Source: a virus. From it: 36,729 nucleotides of DNA. The position numbers were made by a program, and so were the translations under genes. Positions 15,839 through 31,399 of this stretch are shown here, piece by piece. Within the stretch, counting starts at the first letter, position 1. Each line of letters opens with the position of its first letter. The notes below the pieces were generated by a model, which saw only the letters and a list, made by a program, of their open reading frames with translations, was not told the DNA's origin and made no database searches. The stretch lies in the IMG/VR virus record IMGVR_UViG_3300031521_000196, positions 1-36,729 of that record; one strand, given 5' to 3'.

Positions 15839-16213
15839 ATGAATATTAAAAAATTTGATGATTATGAATATGTCAATGAAAACATCCTTAATGATGATGA
15901 TGATAATATAGAAAACAAATGGGAAGTAAGAATAGATGATGCAACAGAATCATTCTGGGAATATAAACATGATGCTATTGATCAGATACTTGAAATATTA
16001 GACACAGAAGGTGACGAAAATGGTTTAGATGGCTATAAAGATGATGATATTGATTATGAAATGTCAAAAAGCGAAATCGCTGACATTTTAGATGTTATGG
16101 ACGAAGATGAGTTTTATGATAAACTTGATGAGCTTAAAGAGTTTGTTGGATATGAAAAAGACATCAAATTAGTCAACATTGCTGATGAAGATGAATTAGA
16201 ATTTCTTGATTAA
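15839..16213 (+). CDS. Highly acidic protein with a capsid-targeting-like N-terminus, 124 aa
   Basis: 124 residues, extremely acidic (many Asp/Glu runs). It begins MNIKKFDDYEYVNENIL, a variant of the MKxxKxFExF start found in five other proteins here. No known domain; it could be largely disordered apart from helices around residues 75-105 (MSKSEIADILDVMDEDEFYDKL). A phage-type promoter lies 18 bases upstream. If the N-terminus is a capsid-targeting signal, this would be an acidic internal head protein. Its stop overlaps the stop of the convergent gene. Confidence 0.7.
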   Translation: MNIKKFDDYEYVNENILNDDDDNIENKWEVRIDDATESFWEYKHDAIDQILEILDTEGDENGLDGYKDDDIDYEMSKSEIADILDVMDEDEFYDKLDELKEFVGYEKDIKLVNIADEDELEFLD

Positions 16214-18141: not shown

Positions 18142-18770
18142 AACATTTAAACTTATTTGAAAACATTATTATAGATGATATGGAAGTAATCGCAACTAAC
18201 AAATCTTACTATAGTTGGGAATATGATAGTCATACGACAACTGCACAAATTTTATTAGATAGAAAAGATGATTCATTATATCTTAAAATTAGAACCGTTC
18301 ATAACAAAAGTGGATTAGGTGCGGGATCATATCCTAAGGACTTAGAATTTGTAAAAATTGGCACAACACAAAAAGCAGATTTACAATTAGTTAAAAAACT
18401 ATTAGTTAAACATAAACAATCACATAAGAACTTTTCTAATCATTGGGAAGACGAAGAAGGAAATAAGATGTTATTATCTGAAGTTATAGCAGAATATAAG
18501 CCAGCAAAGGAAATTTTACCAAAAAAAGAATTAAAGCATATTCAATCAATATCAAATTTTGATATGCCAAAAAAATCAGAAATTGAAATTGTAAAATATT
18601 CAGACCGCTCTTATGCAATTTTTGGTGACGAAACTAGAAAGATAAAAGATAAACTAATAGAATTAGGATGCAAATATAATCGTTTTCTTACTGATCCTAA
18701 ATCTGGCGAAAAACGACCAGGCTGGATATGCTCTATCAGTAAAATAGATTTGGTTAAAAAATTATTATAA
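18138..18770 (+). CDS. Protein with capsid-targeting-like N-terminus and a phage 'GDxTRxIKDKLxELG' domain, 210 aa
   Basis: 210 residues. N-terminus MKHLNLFENIIIDDMEV fits the shared peptide. The C-terminal 70 residues (KYSDRSYAIFGDETRKIKDKL, then LGCKYNRFL and RPGWICSISKIDLVKKLL) match a short domain that I know from viral and phage proteins, often next to topoisomerase or nucleic-acid enzymes ('...IFGDTKxxKDxLKxLGGKFNxxL...GWIFS...'). Its function there is unclear. The middle has a long helix with YKPAKEILPKKELKHI. Translationally coupled to the 17866 gene; convergent with and overlapping the epimerase gene by 6 bases. Confidence 0.7.
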   Translation: MKHLNLFENIIIDDMEVIATNKSYYSWEYDSHTTTAQILLDRKDDSLYLKIRTVHNKSGLGAGSYPKDLEFVKIGTTQKADLQLVKKLLVKHKQSHKNFSNHWEDEEGNKMLLSEVIAEYKPAKEILPKKELKHIQSISNFDMPKKSEIEIVKYSDRSYAIFGDETRKIKDKLIELGCKYNRFLTDPKSGEKRPGWICSISKIDLVKKLL

Positions 18771-19613
18771 AGATTGAATATATTCGTTTAATCTATCTTT
18801 TGGAGTCCAACCTAATCTTACTATTGCATCATCGTTCATTCTAATTGATTTACGATAATTACCATTTTGATCAGATAAATAGTTTTTACTTACATCAAAT
18901 CTTTTAATAAACATATCACAAACTTCATTAATAGAATAGTCATGACCTGTTCCTAATTCCCAAGCATCTTCATGCTTTTCTGTTCCAAATCCAATTTTAA
19001 TTAAACCATCTACAATATCATCCACATAAGTAAAGTCTCTTCGCTGCTCACCATCTCCGACAATACTCAAAGGTTCATCATTCTGAATCTGTTTTCTCCA
19101 AATTCCAATTAATGCTGCCCATTGTCCATCAACTAATTCATTTGGACCATATACATTATAAAATCTAGCAATCTCAAAATCACAGTTGTACACTTTCTTA
19201 TACATTTTCAAAATATCTTCACCAATTTTCTTATATGTTGCATAAGGTGATAATGTAGAATCACACCATTTAGATGACGATCCAGCATAAACAACTTTTA
19301 TATTATTTAACCTTGACCATTCTGCCACACATTGCGTACCAGAACTATTTACTCTAAAAGTTTCATGTGGGTCATTAAATGATGGTTGTATTCTACTTAA
19401 AGATGCAAGATGATAACATAATTCAAAATTGTCTCCTCTCCAATATTGCAACTGTTCAATATCACCATAGCAATACTTACAGCCTTCAATTTCATATTCC
19501 TCTAAGCCAGTTGACAAATCATCCAATGATACAACTTCATGTTTATCTTCTATTAATTTTTTAATTAAATTTGAACCTATAAATCCATTTCCTCCAGTAA
19601 CTAAAACTTTCAT
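18765..19613 (-). CDS. NAD-dependent epimerase/dehydratase (extended SDR)
   Basis: 282 residues, an extended short-chain dehydrogenase of the nucleotide-sugar epimerase/dehydratase kind. The N-terminal Rossmann motif is VTGGNGFIGSNLI, followed by VSLDDLSTG (the NAD-selecting Asp), the AGSSSKW strand, and the catalytic SPYATYKKIGE with the YxxxK pair. A later motif FYNVYGP and the DFTYVDDIVDGLI segment are typical. Likely acts on a UDP- or GDP-sugar; exact substrate unknown. In phages such enzymes may modify host surface sugars or virion glycans. Slightly shorter than the usual 310-340 residues. Confidence 0.9.
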   Translation of the reverse strand: MKVLVTGGNGFIGSNLIKKLIEDKHEVVSLDDLSTGLEEYEIEGCKYCYGDIEQLQYWRGDNFELCYHLASLSRIQPSFNDPHETFRVNSSGTQCVAEWSRLNNIKVVYAGSSSKWCDSTLSPYATYKKIGEDILKMYKKVYNCDFEIARFYNVYGPNELVDGQWAALIGIWRKQIQNDEPLSIVGDGEQRRDFTYVDDIVDGLIKIGFGTEKHEDAWELGTGHDYSINEVCDMFIKRFDVSKNYLSDQNGNYRKSIRMNDDAIVRLGWTPKDRLNEYIQSL

Positions 19614-19683: not shown

Positions 19684-19720
19684 AAAAAAAAGAACCGATT
19701 TTAAATCGGTTCTTTTTTTT
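19684..19720. terminator. Intrinsic terminator after the T9SS-cargo gene
   Basis: AAAAAAGAACCGATTT / AAATCGGTTCTTTTTT stem with a one-base gap at the centre and a T-run on each outward side; serves the minus gene ending at 19737. Confidence 0.85.
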
Positions 19721-19736
19721 CATAGCTTTTAAAATA

Positions 19737-20525
19737 TTACATCTCAAATTTTCTAACTAAATCGCCAGATTTTACAATATAAATTCCGTGTTTTAATTCA
19801 CTCAAATCAACAGAGCAATTATTCAATATCGCACGTTTAACTAATAAGCCAGTTGTGTTGTATATTTTAATTTCATTTGTTGTAGAGTTTAAAACTTCAA
19901 GTCTATTACCAATAAGTTTCACATCTAAAGTGTAAGTAGGTGTAGATAATCCAGTGGTTTTTTCTCCAAAAAACATTTTATCCCAATACACAACAGCAGG
20001 TGTTTTATATGTTCTAAATTGAAAACTGAATGAATTATATCCTGTTGCTGGTGCTGTAACTTCGCAAGTATAATCTTTCCATACTCCTTTCACATCAGGA
20101 AAATATGCAGAACCACCACCAGGTCCCATAAGTAATACCGAATCTGCATGTGATAAAGCAGCATAAGTTGTTGTAGTACCAACATTACACCAATCAGACC
20201 ATATTCTTGCATCAGTACCATCACCTGTTTCAATATAGTAGCTCATTTTAACTGTATAAGTCTTACCTGCTGTAATTGGCACTATTTGTGAAACGATATA
20301 AGTTCCACCAGCTGTTGCCGCTGCAGTGACTTTAAAAGATTTCGCACCATCATTAAATATTGAAGTGCTTTCAGTTGCTGTTGCAAATGTTGCTGTACCT
20401 AGAGTCCAACCATCGGGTGCACCTGCTGTCCAAGTTTCAAAACCAGGATTTACAAGTAAATTTGTTTGTGCATTAACGAAGAATACACTTAAGATAAAAA
20501 AAAGAGAAAGTAAAAGTTTTTTCAT
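19737..20525 (-). CDS. Secreted protein with a type IX secretion (T9SS) C-terminal sorting domain
   Basis: 262 residues. Residues 1-19 are a Sec signal peptide (MKKLLLSLFFILSVFFVNAQ, cut after VNA). The middle is a beta-rich domain starting NLLVNPGFETWTAGAPDGW, as in carbohydrate-binding-type domains of Flavobacteria. The last 65 residues (EIKIYNTTGLLVKRAI, then VDLSELKHGIYIVKSGDLVRKFEM) match the type A sorting domain that sends proteins out through the T9SS of Bacteroidetes. It is richer in G+C than its neighbours (25 of 60 bases at 20101-20160), consistent with recent capture from a host. The product would be exported to the host surface or medium. Confidence 0.88.
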   Translation of the reverse strand: MKKLLLSLFFILSVFFVNAQTNLLVNPGFETWTAGAPDGWTLGTATFATATESTSIFNDGAKSFKVTAAATAGGTYIVSQIVPITAGKTYTVKMSYYIETGDGTDARIWSDWCNVGTTTTYAALSHADSVLLMGPGGGSAYFPDVKGVWKDYTCEVTAPATGYNSFSFQFRTYKTPAVVYWDKMFFGEKTTGLSTPTYTLDVKLIGNRLEVLNSTTNEIKIYNTTGLLVKRAILNNCSVDLSELKHGIYIVKSGDLVRKFEM

Positions 20526-20542
20526 AATTGATTGATTTTTTT

Positions 20543-20797
20543 TTAAATTGATTGTTTTTGTTTATTTTTATTTTTAAATATTTTATATGCGTCAACATAG
20601 TGATAAACTAATTCAGAATTCTCATAATCTGAAGGTTCAACAATTTTTTTCACTTCATTCAAAGCTTCATCATATTTATTATACTTATCATTGTTAAGTT
20701 TAATCCACATGCTTAATCCAAAAATTAATGTTTTTTGATATTGAATCATATAATATTTATTTTTATTCTTAATTTCTAAAATTCTAAAATGTCTCAT
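20543..20797 (-). CDS. Small hypothetical protein, 84 aa
   Basis: Not recognised. 84 residues, basic, with strand-like start (MRHFRILEIKNKNKYYMIQYQ), then helices (EALNEVKKIVEPSDYENSELVYHYVDAYKIF). No signal peptide. Located just upstream of the T9SS-cargo gene (17 bases from its ATG), so possibly in the same transcript. Confidence 0.6.
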   Translation of the reverse strand: MRHFRILEIKNKNKYYMIQYQKTLIFGLSMWIKLNNDKYNKYDEALNEVKKIVEPSDYENSELVYHYVDAYKIFKNKNKQKQSI

Positions 20798-20949: not shown

Positions 20950-21501
20950 ATGGAAAACTTAAAATGGCAAAAATTTAATGGTGAAAAAATTCAGAATATA
21001 AATGAATATGTTTTGGATTATGTAAAAAATGTAGATAGAAATGCGAAAATTATCGTTGGTTGCGATTCCGATACACATTCCCGCAAAACTAGTTATGCTG
21101 TCACCGTTGTTTTTTATAATGATAAAAAAAGAAATGGTGCTCACGTTGTTTATGCTAAATATGCTGTACCTAAGGTTAAAGATCTGATAACAAAATTATG
21201 GGATGAAGCTGTTGTTGCACATAGTGTTGCTGAATCATTAGATAACTCATTGATAGGTAACTATTATTATAAATTTGATAGAAATTATTATGATAATTCT
21301 GTTCCTGAAAAATTAGTTGAAATTCATGTAGATTTAAATTCAACAAAATCTACTAGAAATGGTGCTAGAATGTCTAATAATAAATCTAATAAGATTTATA
21401 ATGATGTAATGGGTTGGTTATGTGGTGAAAGATATAAAGTTATGGGTAAACCCGCCAGCTTTGCCGCAAGTTCGTGTTCGGATAGAATGTGTAGAAAGTA
21501 A
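20950..21501 (+). CDS. YkuK/DUF458-family RNase H-like protein
   Basis: 183 residues that fit the DUF458 (YkuK) family, thought to have an RNase H-like fold. Seen: IIVGCDSDTHSRKTSYAVTVVF (first strand with Asp 39 and 41 in the place of the RNase H catalytic Asp), a middle helix (ITKLWDEAVVAHSVAESL), a second acidic strand (VEIHVDLN) and the end KPASFAASSCSDRMCRK, similar to the usual KPxSxAAS...AD ending. A nuclease activity is plausible but not shown for the family. Its plus-strand promoter motif is 27 bases upstream. N-terminus MENLKWQKFNGEKI is a weak variant of the shared peptide. Confidence 0.8.
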   Translation: MENLKWQKFNGEKIQNINEYVLDYVKNVDRNAKIIVGCDSDTHSRKTSYAVTVVFYNDKKRNGAHVVYAKYAVPKVKDLITKLWDEAVVAHSVAESLDNSLIGNYYYKFDRNYYDNSVPEKLVEIHVDLNSTKSTRNGARMSNNKSNKIYNDVMGWLCGERYKVMGKPASFAASSCSDRMCRK

Positions 21502-22609: not shown

Positions 22610-23011
22610 AAACTTTTTCAATCGTTTAATATCTTCTCGCAATTTTTCATCGTAAAACTTAATTAAAAAATCAATATCACTATCTTTTATTTGATAATAT
22701 TCTTTTATTAATTTTAAATCATTATTATTAAAATCAGACTTAATTTTAACTTTAGATTTTTGATTTGTTTTCCACCACCAATCTGGTGTACCATTTGTTG
22801 GTTTATAAAAAATTTGAAACCATAAATCTAAAGCCGATGATCTGTTTACATTTTTAAAATTAAAAAATTGTGCTTTTTTTATATCTTTAAATGCAAATTT
22901 TTGATTCAACTTAAAGAAACAATTTTCTTTTTCTTCATCTGAAACATATTTATATTTGTCTTTATCCTTAAATATAATATTAGCGAGTGTTATAAAATCT
23001 ACTTTTGCCAT
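22586..23011 (-). CDS. Hypothetical protein, possibly clamp-loader-small-subunit-like, 141 aa
   Basis: 141 residues, helical and basic. The pattern CFFKLNQKFAFKDIKKAQFFNF, then NVNRSSALDLWFQIFYK and PDWWWK recalls the small helical clamp-loader subunit (gp62-like) of T4-related phages, where an 'N..' helix and a conserved DLW precede an aromatic-Pro/Trp segment; I recall this only loosely. The C-terminus is a Lys-rich helix (DIKRLKKFKKETPLK). It overlaps the end of the histidine kinase gene by 13 bases, so it is expressed with it. Treat the clamp-loader idea as low confidence. Confidence 0.55.
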   Translation of the reverse strand: MAKVDFITLANIIFKDKDKYKYVSDEEKENCFFKLNQKFAFKDIKKAQFFNFKNVNRSSALDLWFQIFYKPTNGTPDWWWKTNQKSKVKIKSDFNNNDLKLIKEYYQIKDSDIDFLIKFYDEKLREDIKRLKKFKKETPLK

Positions 23012-24957
23012 ATATCTTTTAATATTGTTATTAATTTGTCCTTTTTTATTGGTTTTTTTAAATGATAATCAACCAAATCACTTTTTTGATTATCTATACC
23101 TGATTTAGAAATAATTTTACAATCATCACAAACCATTTTTAATGTTCGTATTAAATCATAGCTTTTTATTCCAAATAAGTTTAAATCTACTATTATTAGA
23201 TCTATTTTTTCTTTTTGTTTTTTATATATTTCAATAGCTTCATCGCCGCCATTCGCTGTAATCATATTAATATTCATAGAATTTAAATATATACCTAATA
23301 TTGAATATGTTACTGGGATATCATCTATTACTAAAATTGTCTTTTCTGAAAAATCAACATCATCTGCTTCAACATTTTTAACAACTTCCTCTATTGGTAA
23401 TTTAACATAAAATGATGTACCTCTATGTAATTTTGATCTTAACCAAATTTCACCATTCAATATTTCAACAATACTTTTAGATATTGACAAACCCAATCCA
23501 GTACCTTTATATTTCTTTCTACTACCACTATCTGCTTGCCAAAATCTATCAAATACATATTTTATTTTATCATCTTCAATTCCAATTCCAGTATCTTCAA
23601 TTTTAAATGTTATATAATTATTATCTAATGTATAAGATATTTTAATATAACCTTTCTCTGTAAATTTAATAGAGTTACTAATTATATTATATAAAACTTG
23701 TTTCACTCTTAAATAGTCAGATACAATTTTAGTATCATCACCTTTTATAAATTCCATTTTTACGAAATTTAAATTTTTACCATAATTAACTTCATTAAAT
23801 ATATCATGCAATTCGTCAAATAAATCTAAAATTGAAAATTGTTCATAAAGAATATCCAATGCCTCACTTTCTATTTTAGAATAATCTAATATGTTGTTTA
23901 GTAATTCATCTAAGTGTTTTGCATTTGAATTTATTGATTTTATAAATCTTTCAGATCCTTTGTTTTTATTATTTGATAATAATATATCAGAAAATCCAAT
24001 GATTGCTGTCATTGGTGTTCTCAATTCATGCGAAATATTTGATAAAAATATAGATTTTATTGAATTGCTTTTTTCCAATGCATCTTCATTCTCTTTTTGT
24101 ATTGTTATATCTTGAAGTACACCAAACACAATTTTATTTTTACTATCGTAACTTGCGACAGAATGTATAGTTTTGATTTTATTATTTATTTTAATTTTAT
24201 ATTCTACATTATAATGTTTATTATATTCAATCAAATTTTTCATTGCATCATCCATCATTGGTCTAAACTCAGATAACACTACAACTTTAACATTCGGATA
24301 AGTTATAATATCATCATACATCTCATATATCTTTCTCGCACCATCAGATACTATTAATAAATCAGTGTCAACATACAATTCCCAATTTCCTGTTTTTGAT
24401 ATTATTTCAGCTCTAGCTAATCTGTTTTCTGATTTTATCAACTCATCAGAACGTTTACCCTTTTCTTCGTTAGCAATAATCAACTCATCAGAACGTTTAC
24501 ACTTTTCTTCGTTAGCAATAATCAACTCATCAGAACGTTTACCCTTTTCTTCATTTTGAAAAGTTAATTCATGTTCTAAATTCTTGTGAATATTTATTCT
24601 ATCTGTAATGTTAGTAAATATTGCTATAAATTCAATATCATCCCAATATGCAAGACTAACACCAAAATATTTATTTATATTATTATGATAAAATTCAAAA
24701 TATTTTGAATTTTTATTTAAAACTACATCAGAATATATATCTAATGATAATACATCACCATATAACTCTGATGCTAGTTTACCTTCAGCATAATCTTTTG
24801 TGTAACCTAATATCATTTCAAATCCTTTATTAACTTTTAAAACAATATAGTCAATTGGATTACCACTATCATCAAATACCATTTGATGAATTGCAACACC
24901 TTCTAATATGTTAGAAAGTAGATTGTCAAAATATGAATTATTTTGTGAATTTGACAT
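22999..24957 (-). CDS. Soluble hybrid histidine kinase with PAS domains and receiver
   Basis: 652 residues. Order: PAS domain (about 10-120), a coiled-coil linker with three 14-residue repeats (135-174), a second PAS-like domain (about 180-290), HisKA with the phospho-accepting H310 in SNISHELRTPM, HATPase with N box NIISNSIKFT, G1 DTGIGI, F box YVFDRFW and G2 GTGLGLSI, then a receiver (about 540-652) with acidic pair VIDD, acceptor D591 in IVDLNL and conserved K635 in LKKP. All catalytic motifs look intact. No transmembrane segment, so it would sense an intracellular signal. The linker resembles those of Bacteroidetes kinases. No separate response regulator is seen nearby. Complete sensor kinases are very rare in phages. 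Confidence 0.93.
   Translation of the reverse strand: MSNSQNNSYFDNLLSNILEGVAIHQMVFDDSGNPIDYIVLKVNKGFEMILGYTKDYAEGKLASELYGDVLSLDIYSDVVLNKNSKYFEFYHNNINKYFGVSLAYWDDIEFIAIFTNITDRINIHKNLEHELTFQNEEKGKRSDELIIANEEKCKRSDELIIANEEKGKRSDELIKSENRLARAEIISKTGNWELYVDTDLLIVSDGARKIYEMYDDIITYPNVKVVVLSEFRPMMDDAMKNLIEYNKHYNVEYKIKINNKIKTIHSVASYDSKNKIVFGVLQDITIQKENEDALEKSNSIKSIFLSNISHELRTPMTAIIGFSDILLSNNKNKGSERFIKSINSNAKHLDELLNNILDYSKIESEALDILYEQFSILDLFDELHDIFNEVNYGKNLNFVKMEFIKGDDTKIVSDYLRVKQVLYNIISNSIKFTEKGYIKISYTLDNNYITFKIEDTGIGIEDDKIKYVFDRFWQADSGSRKKYKGTGLGLSISKSIVEILNGEIWLRSKLHRGTSFYVKLPIEEVVKNVEADDVDFSEKTILVIDDIPVTYSILGIYLNSMNINMITANGGDEAIEIYKKQKEKIDLIIVDLNLFGIKSYDLIRTLKMVCDDCKIISKSGIDNQKSDLVDYHLKKPIKKDKLITILKDIWQK
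24436..24555 (-). repeat. 42-bp tandem repeat in the histidine kinase linker
   Basis: Almost three copies of a 42-base unit encoding NEEKGKRSDELIIA (second copy C for G). Near identity at the DNA level implies recent expansion. The register of 14 residues (two heptads) extends the signalling coiled coil without changing its phase. Confidence 0.9.
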
Positions 24958-30664: not shown

Positions 30665-31399
30665 TTATAAAAGAGTATTATTTTTTGACTGTTTATTGTG
30701 TGATATTAAACCATTAACAATGTATGTGTGAGCATCTTCAATTTCTATACACATAACAGTACCCATACCAATATCTAATATTTCAGTTATTTCTTTATTT
30801 CCGTTTAATGTTTTAATTTTTGAACCTATTGATAAATCTGAAACAGCAACATATTCATCATTTTCAGTTAAAAACTTATGAGATTCTGAAACTGTAACAT
30901 ATTCAAAATTAAATGAAACTTTAATAATTTGTTGTGCTATTTTTTCTAATTTCTTAATTTTGAAATAATCTAATTTTTTTGTTTTTTCGTGTATAGTATA
31001 TACATTTTGTCCAACCATTAAATCATCTACTCTCATTTCTCTTTTTGGTGATATTTTAATATTCATATCAAGTGTTGGACAACCTATAATTGGTTTTACT
31101 GTTGTATCAGTTGTTGTAACTATAACAGAATCAACAGACACCGTAGTATTAGTATCAACAGTTGTTGTTTCTTGATATGTAATCAAATTTTCACCATATC
31201 TTTTTATTGGCAAAATATCCATTTTTTGAATATATGGGCTATTCAAAAGTTCTCTATATTGAGCCTCAGAAATTTCTGTAGCTAAAATTACATTATCTCT
31301 AACAAAAACAACGGTTCCACCACTTTTGATAATACTATCTTTTAAAGGTCCAACATAAGTTAGATCACTAAATAATACTGTTTGTGTCAATTGTGTCAT
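30665..31399 (-). CDS. Virion-module protein with a C-terminal Hint (intein-like) domain
   Basis: 244 residues. Residues 1-75 match the start of the neighbour at 31419-32519 (both have an ILATEIS/IIASEIS strand, an SGGT/QGGT turn and LPIKRYG/LPLKQFG). A Thr/Val-rich linker follows. From C107 to N235 (129 residues) is a Hint domain: CPTLDMNIKI (block A, N-terminal Cys), VTVSESHKFLT (block B-like) and CIEIEDAHTYIVNGLISHN (blocks F-G). The residue after HN is Lys, not Cys/Ser/Thr, so ordinary protein splicing is impossible. This fits a bacterial intein-like (BIL, type A-like) domain that may cleave off its 9-residue tail or rearrange. No homing endonuclease is inside. Confidence 0.8.
   Translation of the reverse strand: MTQLTQTVLFSDLTYVGPLKDSIIKSGGTVVFVRDNVILATEISEAQYRELLNSPYIQKMDILPIKRYGENLITYQETTTVDTNTTVSVDSVIVTTTDTTVKPIIGCPTLDMNIKISPKREMRVDDLMVGQNVYTIHEKTKKLDYFKIKKLEKIAQQIIKVSFNFEYVTVSESHKFLTENDEYVAVSDLSIGSKIKTLNGNKEITEILDIGMGTVMCIEIEDAHTYIVNGLISHNKQSKNNTLL

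Follow-up and report, generated by a model that had tools for sequence, protein, structure and literature searches.

A Putative T9SS Surface Cargo Gene of Paludibacter-Like Ancestry in a Fragment of a Probable Mahaphage Relative

We propose with moderate confidence that a Mahaphage-type phage captured a gene for a T9SS-exported, glycan-binding protein from a Paludibacter-like bacterium and keeps it as exchangeable surface cargo. The gene lies in a 36,729-base IMG/VR virus record, which we analyzed over its whole length and refer to as the window. As suggested by an earlier interpretation of the letters alone (the sequence-only reading), it is a phage gene for a protein of host type that carries a domain of carbohydrate-binding type as well as both addresses for T9SS export. 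We infer the expression, export, ligand, and purpose of this cargo protein from its sequence. Glycan binding on the surface of the infected cell ranks first among the readings of its role, with superinfection exclusion and upkeep of a host function as near-equal purposes.

Origin of the Window

A 639-aa protein of the window matches 5 of 50,697 phage records, each a genome of 634–735 kb. The best matches of an S1-like protein are to genomes of 735, 642, 636, and 635 kb, followed by a 462-kb phage, with weaker matches to Lak phages and others. The largest genomes (634, 636, 642, and 735 kb) have been placed in the Mahaphage clade, with predicted Bacteroidetes hosts (Al-Shayeb et al. 2020, PMC7162821). 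Based on these protein matches, the window is probably a small piece of a very large genome belonging to a huge relative of the 634–735 kb Mahaphages; we identified neither a terminase nor a capsid gene within its 36.7 kb.

The cargo gene had been described as less A/T-rich than nearby genes, and its G+C content of 34.2% is the highest among 41 ORFs (mean 25.9, sd 3.2). This composition would fit contaminating or misassembled host DNA, but it fails as a mark of foreign origin: the GC3 of the gene (16.3%) is close to the window mean (15.0%) and thus resembles that of the phage, so the elevated G+C reflects amino acid content, and the Paludibacter copy described below itself has a GC3 of only 21%. 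Contamination is also unlikely because a second IMG/VR record (L002; 21,449 bases), perhaps not an independent sample, holds the gene and its flanks in identical form across the 2,874 columns compared. Together with syntenic sister phages, in one of which remnants of a neighboring 84-aa gene and of a sorting domain occupy the same slot, this record supports a phage origin of the segment, and the contamination explanation is already close to refuted.

Domain Architecture of the Cargo Protein

The cargo ORF occupies the claimed position on the minus strand, with an ATG start and 262 codons, and is composed of the following parts.

19737..20525, minus strand: T9SS-cargo gene, 262 aa, with signal peptide, CBM4/9-like domain, and type A sorting domain
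20466..20525, minus strand: signal peptide, residues 1–20, ranking first in hydrophobicity among 45 ORFs
19956..20465, minus strand: passenger, a CBM4/9-like β domain, residues 21–190
19740..19955, minus strand: type A T9SS sorting domain, residues 191–262, with seven predicted strands

The signal peptide proposed by the sequence-only reading (MKKLLLSLFFILSVFFVNA, followed by Q) has a basic start and the most hydrophobic N-terminus among 45 scored ORFs of the window (12-residue Kyte–Doolittle mean of 2.88; runner-up 1.67); judged by eye, it is probably cleaved after VNA and before Q20. The proposed sugar-binding-type β domain is likewise borne out. Passenger residues 22–101 match the Pfam family CBM_4_9 (PF02018) with 28.8 bits (cut-off 25.9; the Paludibacter copy, at 23.9 bits, is slightly below), and a profile built from nine relatives matches the PDB CBM chains 9fli and 1gui; a phmmer search of the PDB with the cargo protein alone gave no credible match. 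Two AlphaFold models are poor overall (mean pLDDT of 56.4 and 59.9), the sorting domain alone being usable. The closest PDB folds to the passenger include CBM4 and CBM16 glycan binders, with CBM4-2 chains in the top rows (Z 9.3, 140 residues, 3.1 Å), weak support from a poorly modeled passenger for which unrelated proteins score nearly as high; the rows shown hold no T9SS sorting-domain chains, which excludes nothing. We predict that the cargo protein is a probable sugar-binding (lectin-like) surface protein.

From residue 201 onward pLDDT is about 74–91, and the C-terminal 60 residues are modeled as seven strands; sorting domains of solved structure are 3+4 β-sandwiches (PMC11285876). A protein scan places the sorting domain slightly below both cut-offs (Por_Secre_tail PF18962, 26.4 bits vs. 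27; TIGR04183, 22.7 vs. 23), and a genome search places it above both (29.2 and 25.1 bits, respectively). The nine-relative profile matches the sorting-domain-type PDB chain 8glk_D and, more weakly, 8glj_D, in agreement with the type A domain claimed before. The match is well above chance, given that the same TIGR04183 search returned no matches in six control phages (Lak-C1, Lak-A2, Lak-B2, phiKZ, phage G, and crAss001; 2.5 Mb). A candidate assignment to the T9SS-dependent surface endonucleases (AS87_RS02955 family, NF052644) was rejected, at 29.1 bits against a curated cut-off of 260.

Bacterial Relatives and Donor Lineage

The closest relative of the cargo protein is encoded on the chromosome of a Paludibacter metagenome genome (L003:8001-8798; JAQTTH010000010.1), with 184 of 265 aligned positions identical (69–70% of amino acids) and an alignment that spans cargo residues 1 to 260. 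This gene shares the end-to-end architecture of the phage cargo but differs in its chromosomal location, with a glycogen-synthase-like gene as its head-to-head neighbor, and in its sorting domain, which is 38% identical to that of the phage protein, compared with 85–86% for the passenger. A second relative from the same genus shows 60–64% identity. Family matches occur in 13 of 48 Paludibacter genomes (E 1e-20) and in 20 of 200 genomes of the bacterial family (E 1e-8), some of the latter through the sorting domain alone. A PorU sortase is present in the donor-lineage genome G001 (1174 bits). Because the nearest relative is a Paludibacter gene in a genome with a T9SS sortase, the donor and likely host belong to the Bacteroidales and not to Flavobacterium; the Flavobacterium frame of the sequence-only reading is not supported, since both the closest relatives and the traced donor are Paludibacter (Bacteroidales). 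By sequence relationship, the gene is a copy that entered the phage from a Paludibacter-related bacterium; the actual phage host is one that we infer.

In a tree of the passenger alone, the phage copy pairs with STB_36 (support 94/98); upon addition of G237, support for this pair falls to 80/78 within a 90/96 group of all three, and a full-length tree leaves the pair without resolution. One bacterial sorting domain seems to have been exchanged. Between the phage and Paludibacter copies, dN/dS is 0.07 in the passenger and 0.56 in the sorting domain, the least constrained part, and dS is ~1.3. This dS is close to saturation, which implies an old transfer or an unsampled true donor. The low dN/dS of a passenger that is 86% identical at such a dS suggests that it has probably retained its activity since the transfer, itself not very recent.

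Such preservation leads to one explanation of what the gene is for, namely that the phage copy sustains a bacterial surface function, either polysaccharide attachment or alpha-glucan handling, during host shutdown. We regard this as possible, albeit on the unlikely side. The strong constraint on the passenger and the CBM4 and CBM16 glycan binders among its nearest PDB folds speak for it, as does the finding that a glycogen-synthase-like gene (by eye) lies head to head with the cargo homolog in six of the nine standalone bacterial loci examined (the exceptions are L008, which is at a contig end, L010, and L017); however, this synteny can only hint at the bacterial function.

A viral scan with a nine-sequence alignment recovered the identical record L002 and 14 contigs that match the passenger wholly or partly, none of which has a PF18962 match (0/14). 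The ORF examined among these contigs (L038) is by eye a phage tail-type protein. The presence of the same domain type in such a protein, along with matches of PHROG 15641 and NF048003, would be expected if the cargo protein were a structural phage protein, that is, the CBM-like domain of a tail fiber or spike whose ends had been misread. We consider this very improbable given the clear signal peptide, the sorting domain at the terminus, and the match of residues 1 to 260 to a chromosomal bacterial gene.

Gene Neighborhood and Variable Slot

The gene order in the window is MKHLNLFE-type gene, epimerase, terminator, cargo gene, 84-aa gene, and RNase H-like gene. The neighboring features are listed below.

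18765..19613, minus strand: nucleotide-sugar epimerase, a neighbor outside the cargo operon
19684..19720, no strand assigned: terminator-like hairpin of 17 pairs plus a T run, between cargo gene and epimerase
20543..20797, minus strand: 84-aa phage gene, 17 bp upstream of the cargo gene on the same strand, kept in G217 and a remnant in G216
20950..21501, plus strand: RNase H-like gene at the border of the variable slot (window, G216, G217, and G221)

The 84-aa gene is the probable operon partner of the cargo gene. The sequence-only reading had instead pointed to the epimerase as a partner in surface remodeling. The epimerase is indeed adjacent, but a functional link is not supported in view of the 17-pair terminator between the two genes, the membership of the epimerase in a common phage family (PHROG 540), and the sister phage G216, in which the epimerase is intact several kb off the slot and the cargo is present only as a broken remnant.

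We compared the slot in the window, G216, G217, and G221; as read, G219 (L077) stops short of it, and G225 (L080) is without the slot neighbors. In G216 (83% identity in the 639-aa protein), the RNase H-like gene and those beyond it follow the window order, and the slot contains a different 224-aa gene, the two ends of the 84-aa gene fused by a deletion, and a sorting-domain fragment with its own stop (40% identity over 40 residues, pairwise E 1.8e-6). These remnants indicate that the 84-aa gene and a sorting-domain gene were adjacent in the common ancestor, in which the passenger may have differed, and the loss of the cargo gene from this sister phage indicates that it is dispensable. G217 (72%) encodes an 80-aa homolog of the 84-aa protein and has a GIY-YIG-type gene (by eye) at the cargo position, and in G221 (66%) ~180 bases separate the RNase H-like gene from a relative of the 224-aa gene. 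The mere scar in G216 and the diverged sorting domain raise the possibility that the cargo gene is a selfish or decaying passenger without function that is being lost, as in the sister phage. This is improbable considering the intact reading frame, the passenger dN/dS of 0.07, and the occurrence of sorting-domain ORFs in all five related huge genomes searched.

Several other features of the window and its sister phages were observed. The block around the epimerase is partly duplicated in the sister phage (L075:1080-8477), whose slot also holds a stray stretch, possibly from a fiber gene; both are signs of frequent local rearrangement. Window positions 30665-31399 encode a tail-region protein whose C-terminal domain is intein/Hint-like (PF14890, 2.7e-4, below cut-off); this domain is present in G216 and absent from the shorter G217 version. 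A phage hybrid histidine kinase with near-identical EEKGKRSDELI-type repeats is encoded at 22999-24957 and has relatives in G216, G217, and G219. Finally, the window proteins at 15839, 17866, 18138, 21765, 27545, and 11584 have much the same M..(F/W/Y)E-type motif at their start, reminiscent of T4 capsid-targeting sequences.

Sorting Domains in Related Huge Phages

We did not identify a relative of the cargo protein by tblastn among the 50,697 phage records, Mahaphages included. This search is blind to the sorting-domain signal, since five of those same records carry other sorting-domain ORFs. TIGR04183 exceeds the NCBI cut-off at seven loci in five of five related huge genomes (735, 642, 636, 635, and 462 kb), which comprise the Mahaphages LR756501, LR756502, LR745206, and LR756504 and the related LR756500; of the two records of 735,411 bases, LR756503 was left out of the search. 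PF18962 is above its cut-off in four of these genomes and below it in the fifth. The seven ORFs, given as locus and position, are as follows.

L052:1147-1707
L053:1105-1704
L054:622-1962
L055:1495-2985
L056:1495-2604
L057:1492-1902
L058:1327-1680

All seven proteins pass TIGR04183 in a protein scan (24.2–46.3 bits) and have a signal-peptide-like start by eye, an internal Met being taken as the start in L055 and L058. The huge phages thus resemble the window phage in encoding related proteins and their own signal-peptide and sorting-domain ORFs, but differ in their passengers, which include FISUMP after an internal sorting domain (L054), two-component-propeller repeats (L055), and short domains of unknown type. 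The sorting-domain proteins encoded in the 642 and 635 kb genomes share 32% identity along their full length and have the same neighbors, so at least one cargo gene descends vertically.

Across all 25 records searched, TIGR04183 is above the cut-off in seven: the five huge genomes, the window, and G225. One of 14 control genomes exceeds the cut-off. ORFs with both a signal peptide and a sorting domain are absent from three Lak phages (a sample of the 15 Lak records that matched the S1-like protein of the window) and from seven other phages. Sorting domains are absent from four Cellulophaga/Flavobacterium phages (0/4), so infection of such hosts does not alone explain the pattern. Among 13 IMG/VR Mahaphage-like fragments, we found one other match, a doubtful 102-aa ORF in G225 with the domain near its N-terminus; the 12 fragments without a match count against the explanation that we consider best. 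We suggest only tentatively, at somewhat below even confidence, that T9SS display of phage proteins is an ancestral, clade-wide trait of environmental Mahaphages, with changing cargo that is partly host-derived and partly phage-born and in some cases vertically inherited. If this is true, an infected cell would wear a coat chosen by the phage.

Two genes near these loci were also noted. In the 735 kb phage, a cation-efflux gene (L054:2016-2894) adjoins the T9SS cargo gene and is 56% identical to a Paludibacter gene located ~4 kb from the donor gene; this shared gene is a further hint of Bacteroidales hosts. An ORF at L057:2837-3085, also from the 735 kb phage, resembles the C-terminal portion of translation factor IF-3 when compared with L003 by eye.

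Model and Implications

In the proposed mechanism, a Mahaphage-type phage would have acquired the gene from a Paludibacter-like host and kept it among exchangeable surface cargo. During infection, the cargo protein would be produced together with the 84-aa phage protein and cross the inner membrane via Sec, after which the host T9SS would recognize its sorting domain. A sortase would then cut off this domain, as described in Porphyromonas gingivalis, and the cargo would be released or fixed at the outer surface. With Sec and T9SS addresses joined to a lectin-like passenger, surface display is the most probable route. The CBM-like passenger may bind the same glycan as the bacterial original and would most likely coat glycans on the infected cell or its neighbors, with altered phage adsorption or attachment as the consequence; receptor masking is a reasonable option among several.

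Two earlier studies reported phage-encoded T9SS cargo. In Cryophage, variable cargo of surface type bears T9SS type A sorting domains, and a hijack of the host T9SS has been proposed (Bellas et al. 2020, PMC7468147). Like the window phage, it is a Bacteroidetes phage with sorting-domain-tagged surface cargo; it differs in being a 76 kb, non-Mahaphage genome with an endoglucanase, a GH39 enzyme, and a PA14 protein as cargo, for which the relevant passages of that paper name no donor. ORFs with T9SS sorting domains, one of them fused to a BACON domain, occur in cluster 2 gut phages (de Jonge et al. 2019, PMC6949934). These share with the window phage the sorting domains and, in one ORF, their pairing with a carbohydrate-binding-type domain, but belong to another phage group and have their cargo near head genes, and the passages concerned contain no export hypothesis.

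Superinfection exclusion, in which the exported lectin covers a glycan receptor and blocks adsorption by other phages, has been put forward for the Cryophage cargo (PMC7468147). For the window phage we regard it as doubtful as the specific purpose. It would account for the export address joined to a CBM-like domain and for cargo that is patchy and exchangeable among related phages; however, the sequence gives no pointer to a phage receptor, and a passenger so close to that of the bacterium's own protein may just do the bacterium's job.

The main text of the huge-phage paper (PMC7162821) mentions predicted cell-surface proteins, and the terms T9SS and secretion are absent from it. Among the literature matches listed, a scope that lies outside subscription papers, bioRxiv, and supplements, we found no link of Mahaphages or huge phages with T9SS, and no mention of the seven huge-phage ORFs in the papers searched. 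The Mahaphage-wide pattern and the traced donor thus appear new. The lineage of one T9SS-tagged phage gene now leads back to a bacterial genus; the gene occupies a variable slot and is one of many such genes in the largest known phages, and the recurrence of this cargo in Mahaphages is the part worth following. Paludibacter-like hosts are indicated for a phage group whose hosts, Lak phages apart, are given to phylum only in the relevant passages of PMC7162821. Giant phages of this group may routinely use T9SS export to remodel infected cells, which opens the question of whether a phage re-dresses its host surface via the host's own secretion machine and so decides which other phages enter.
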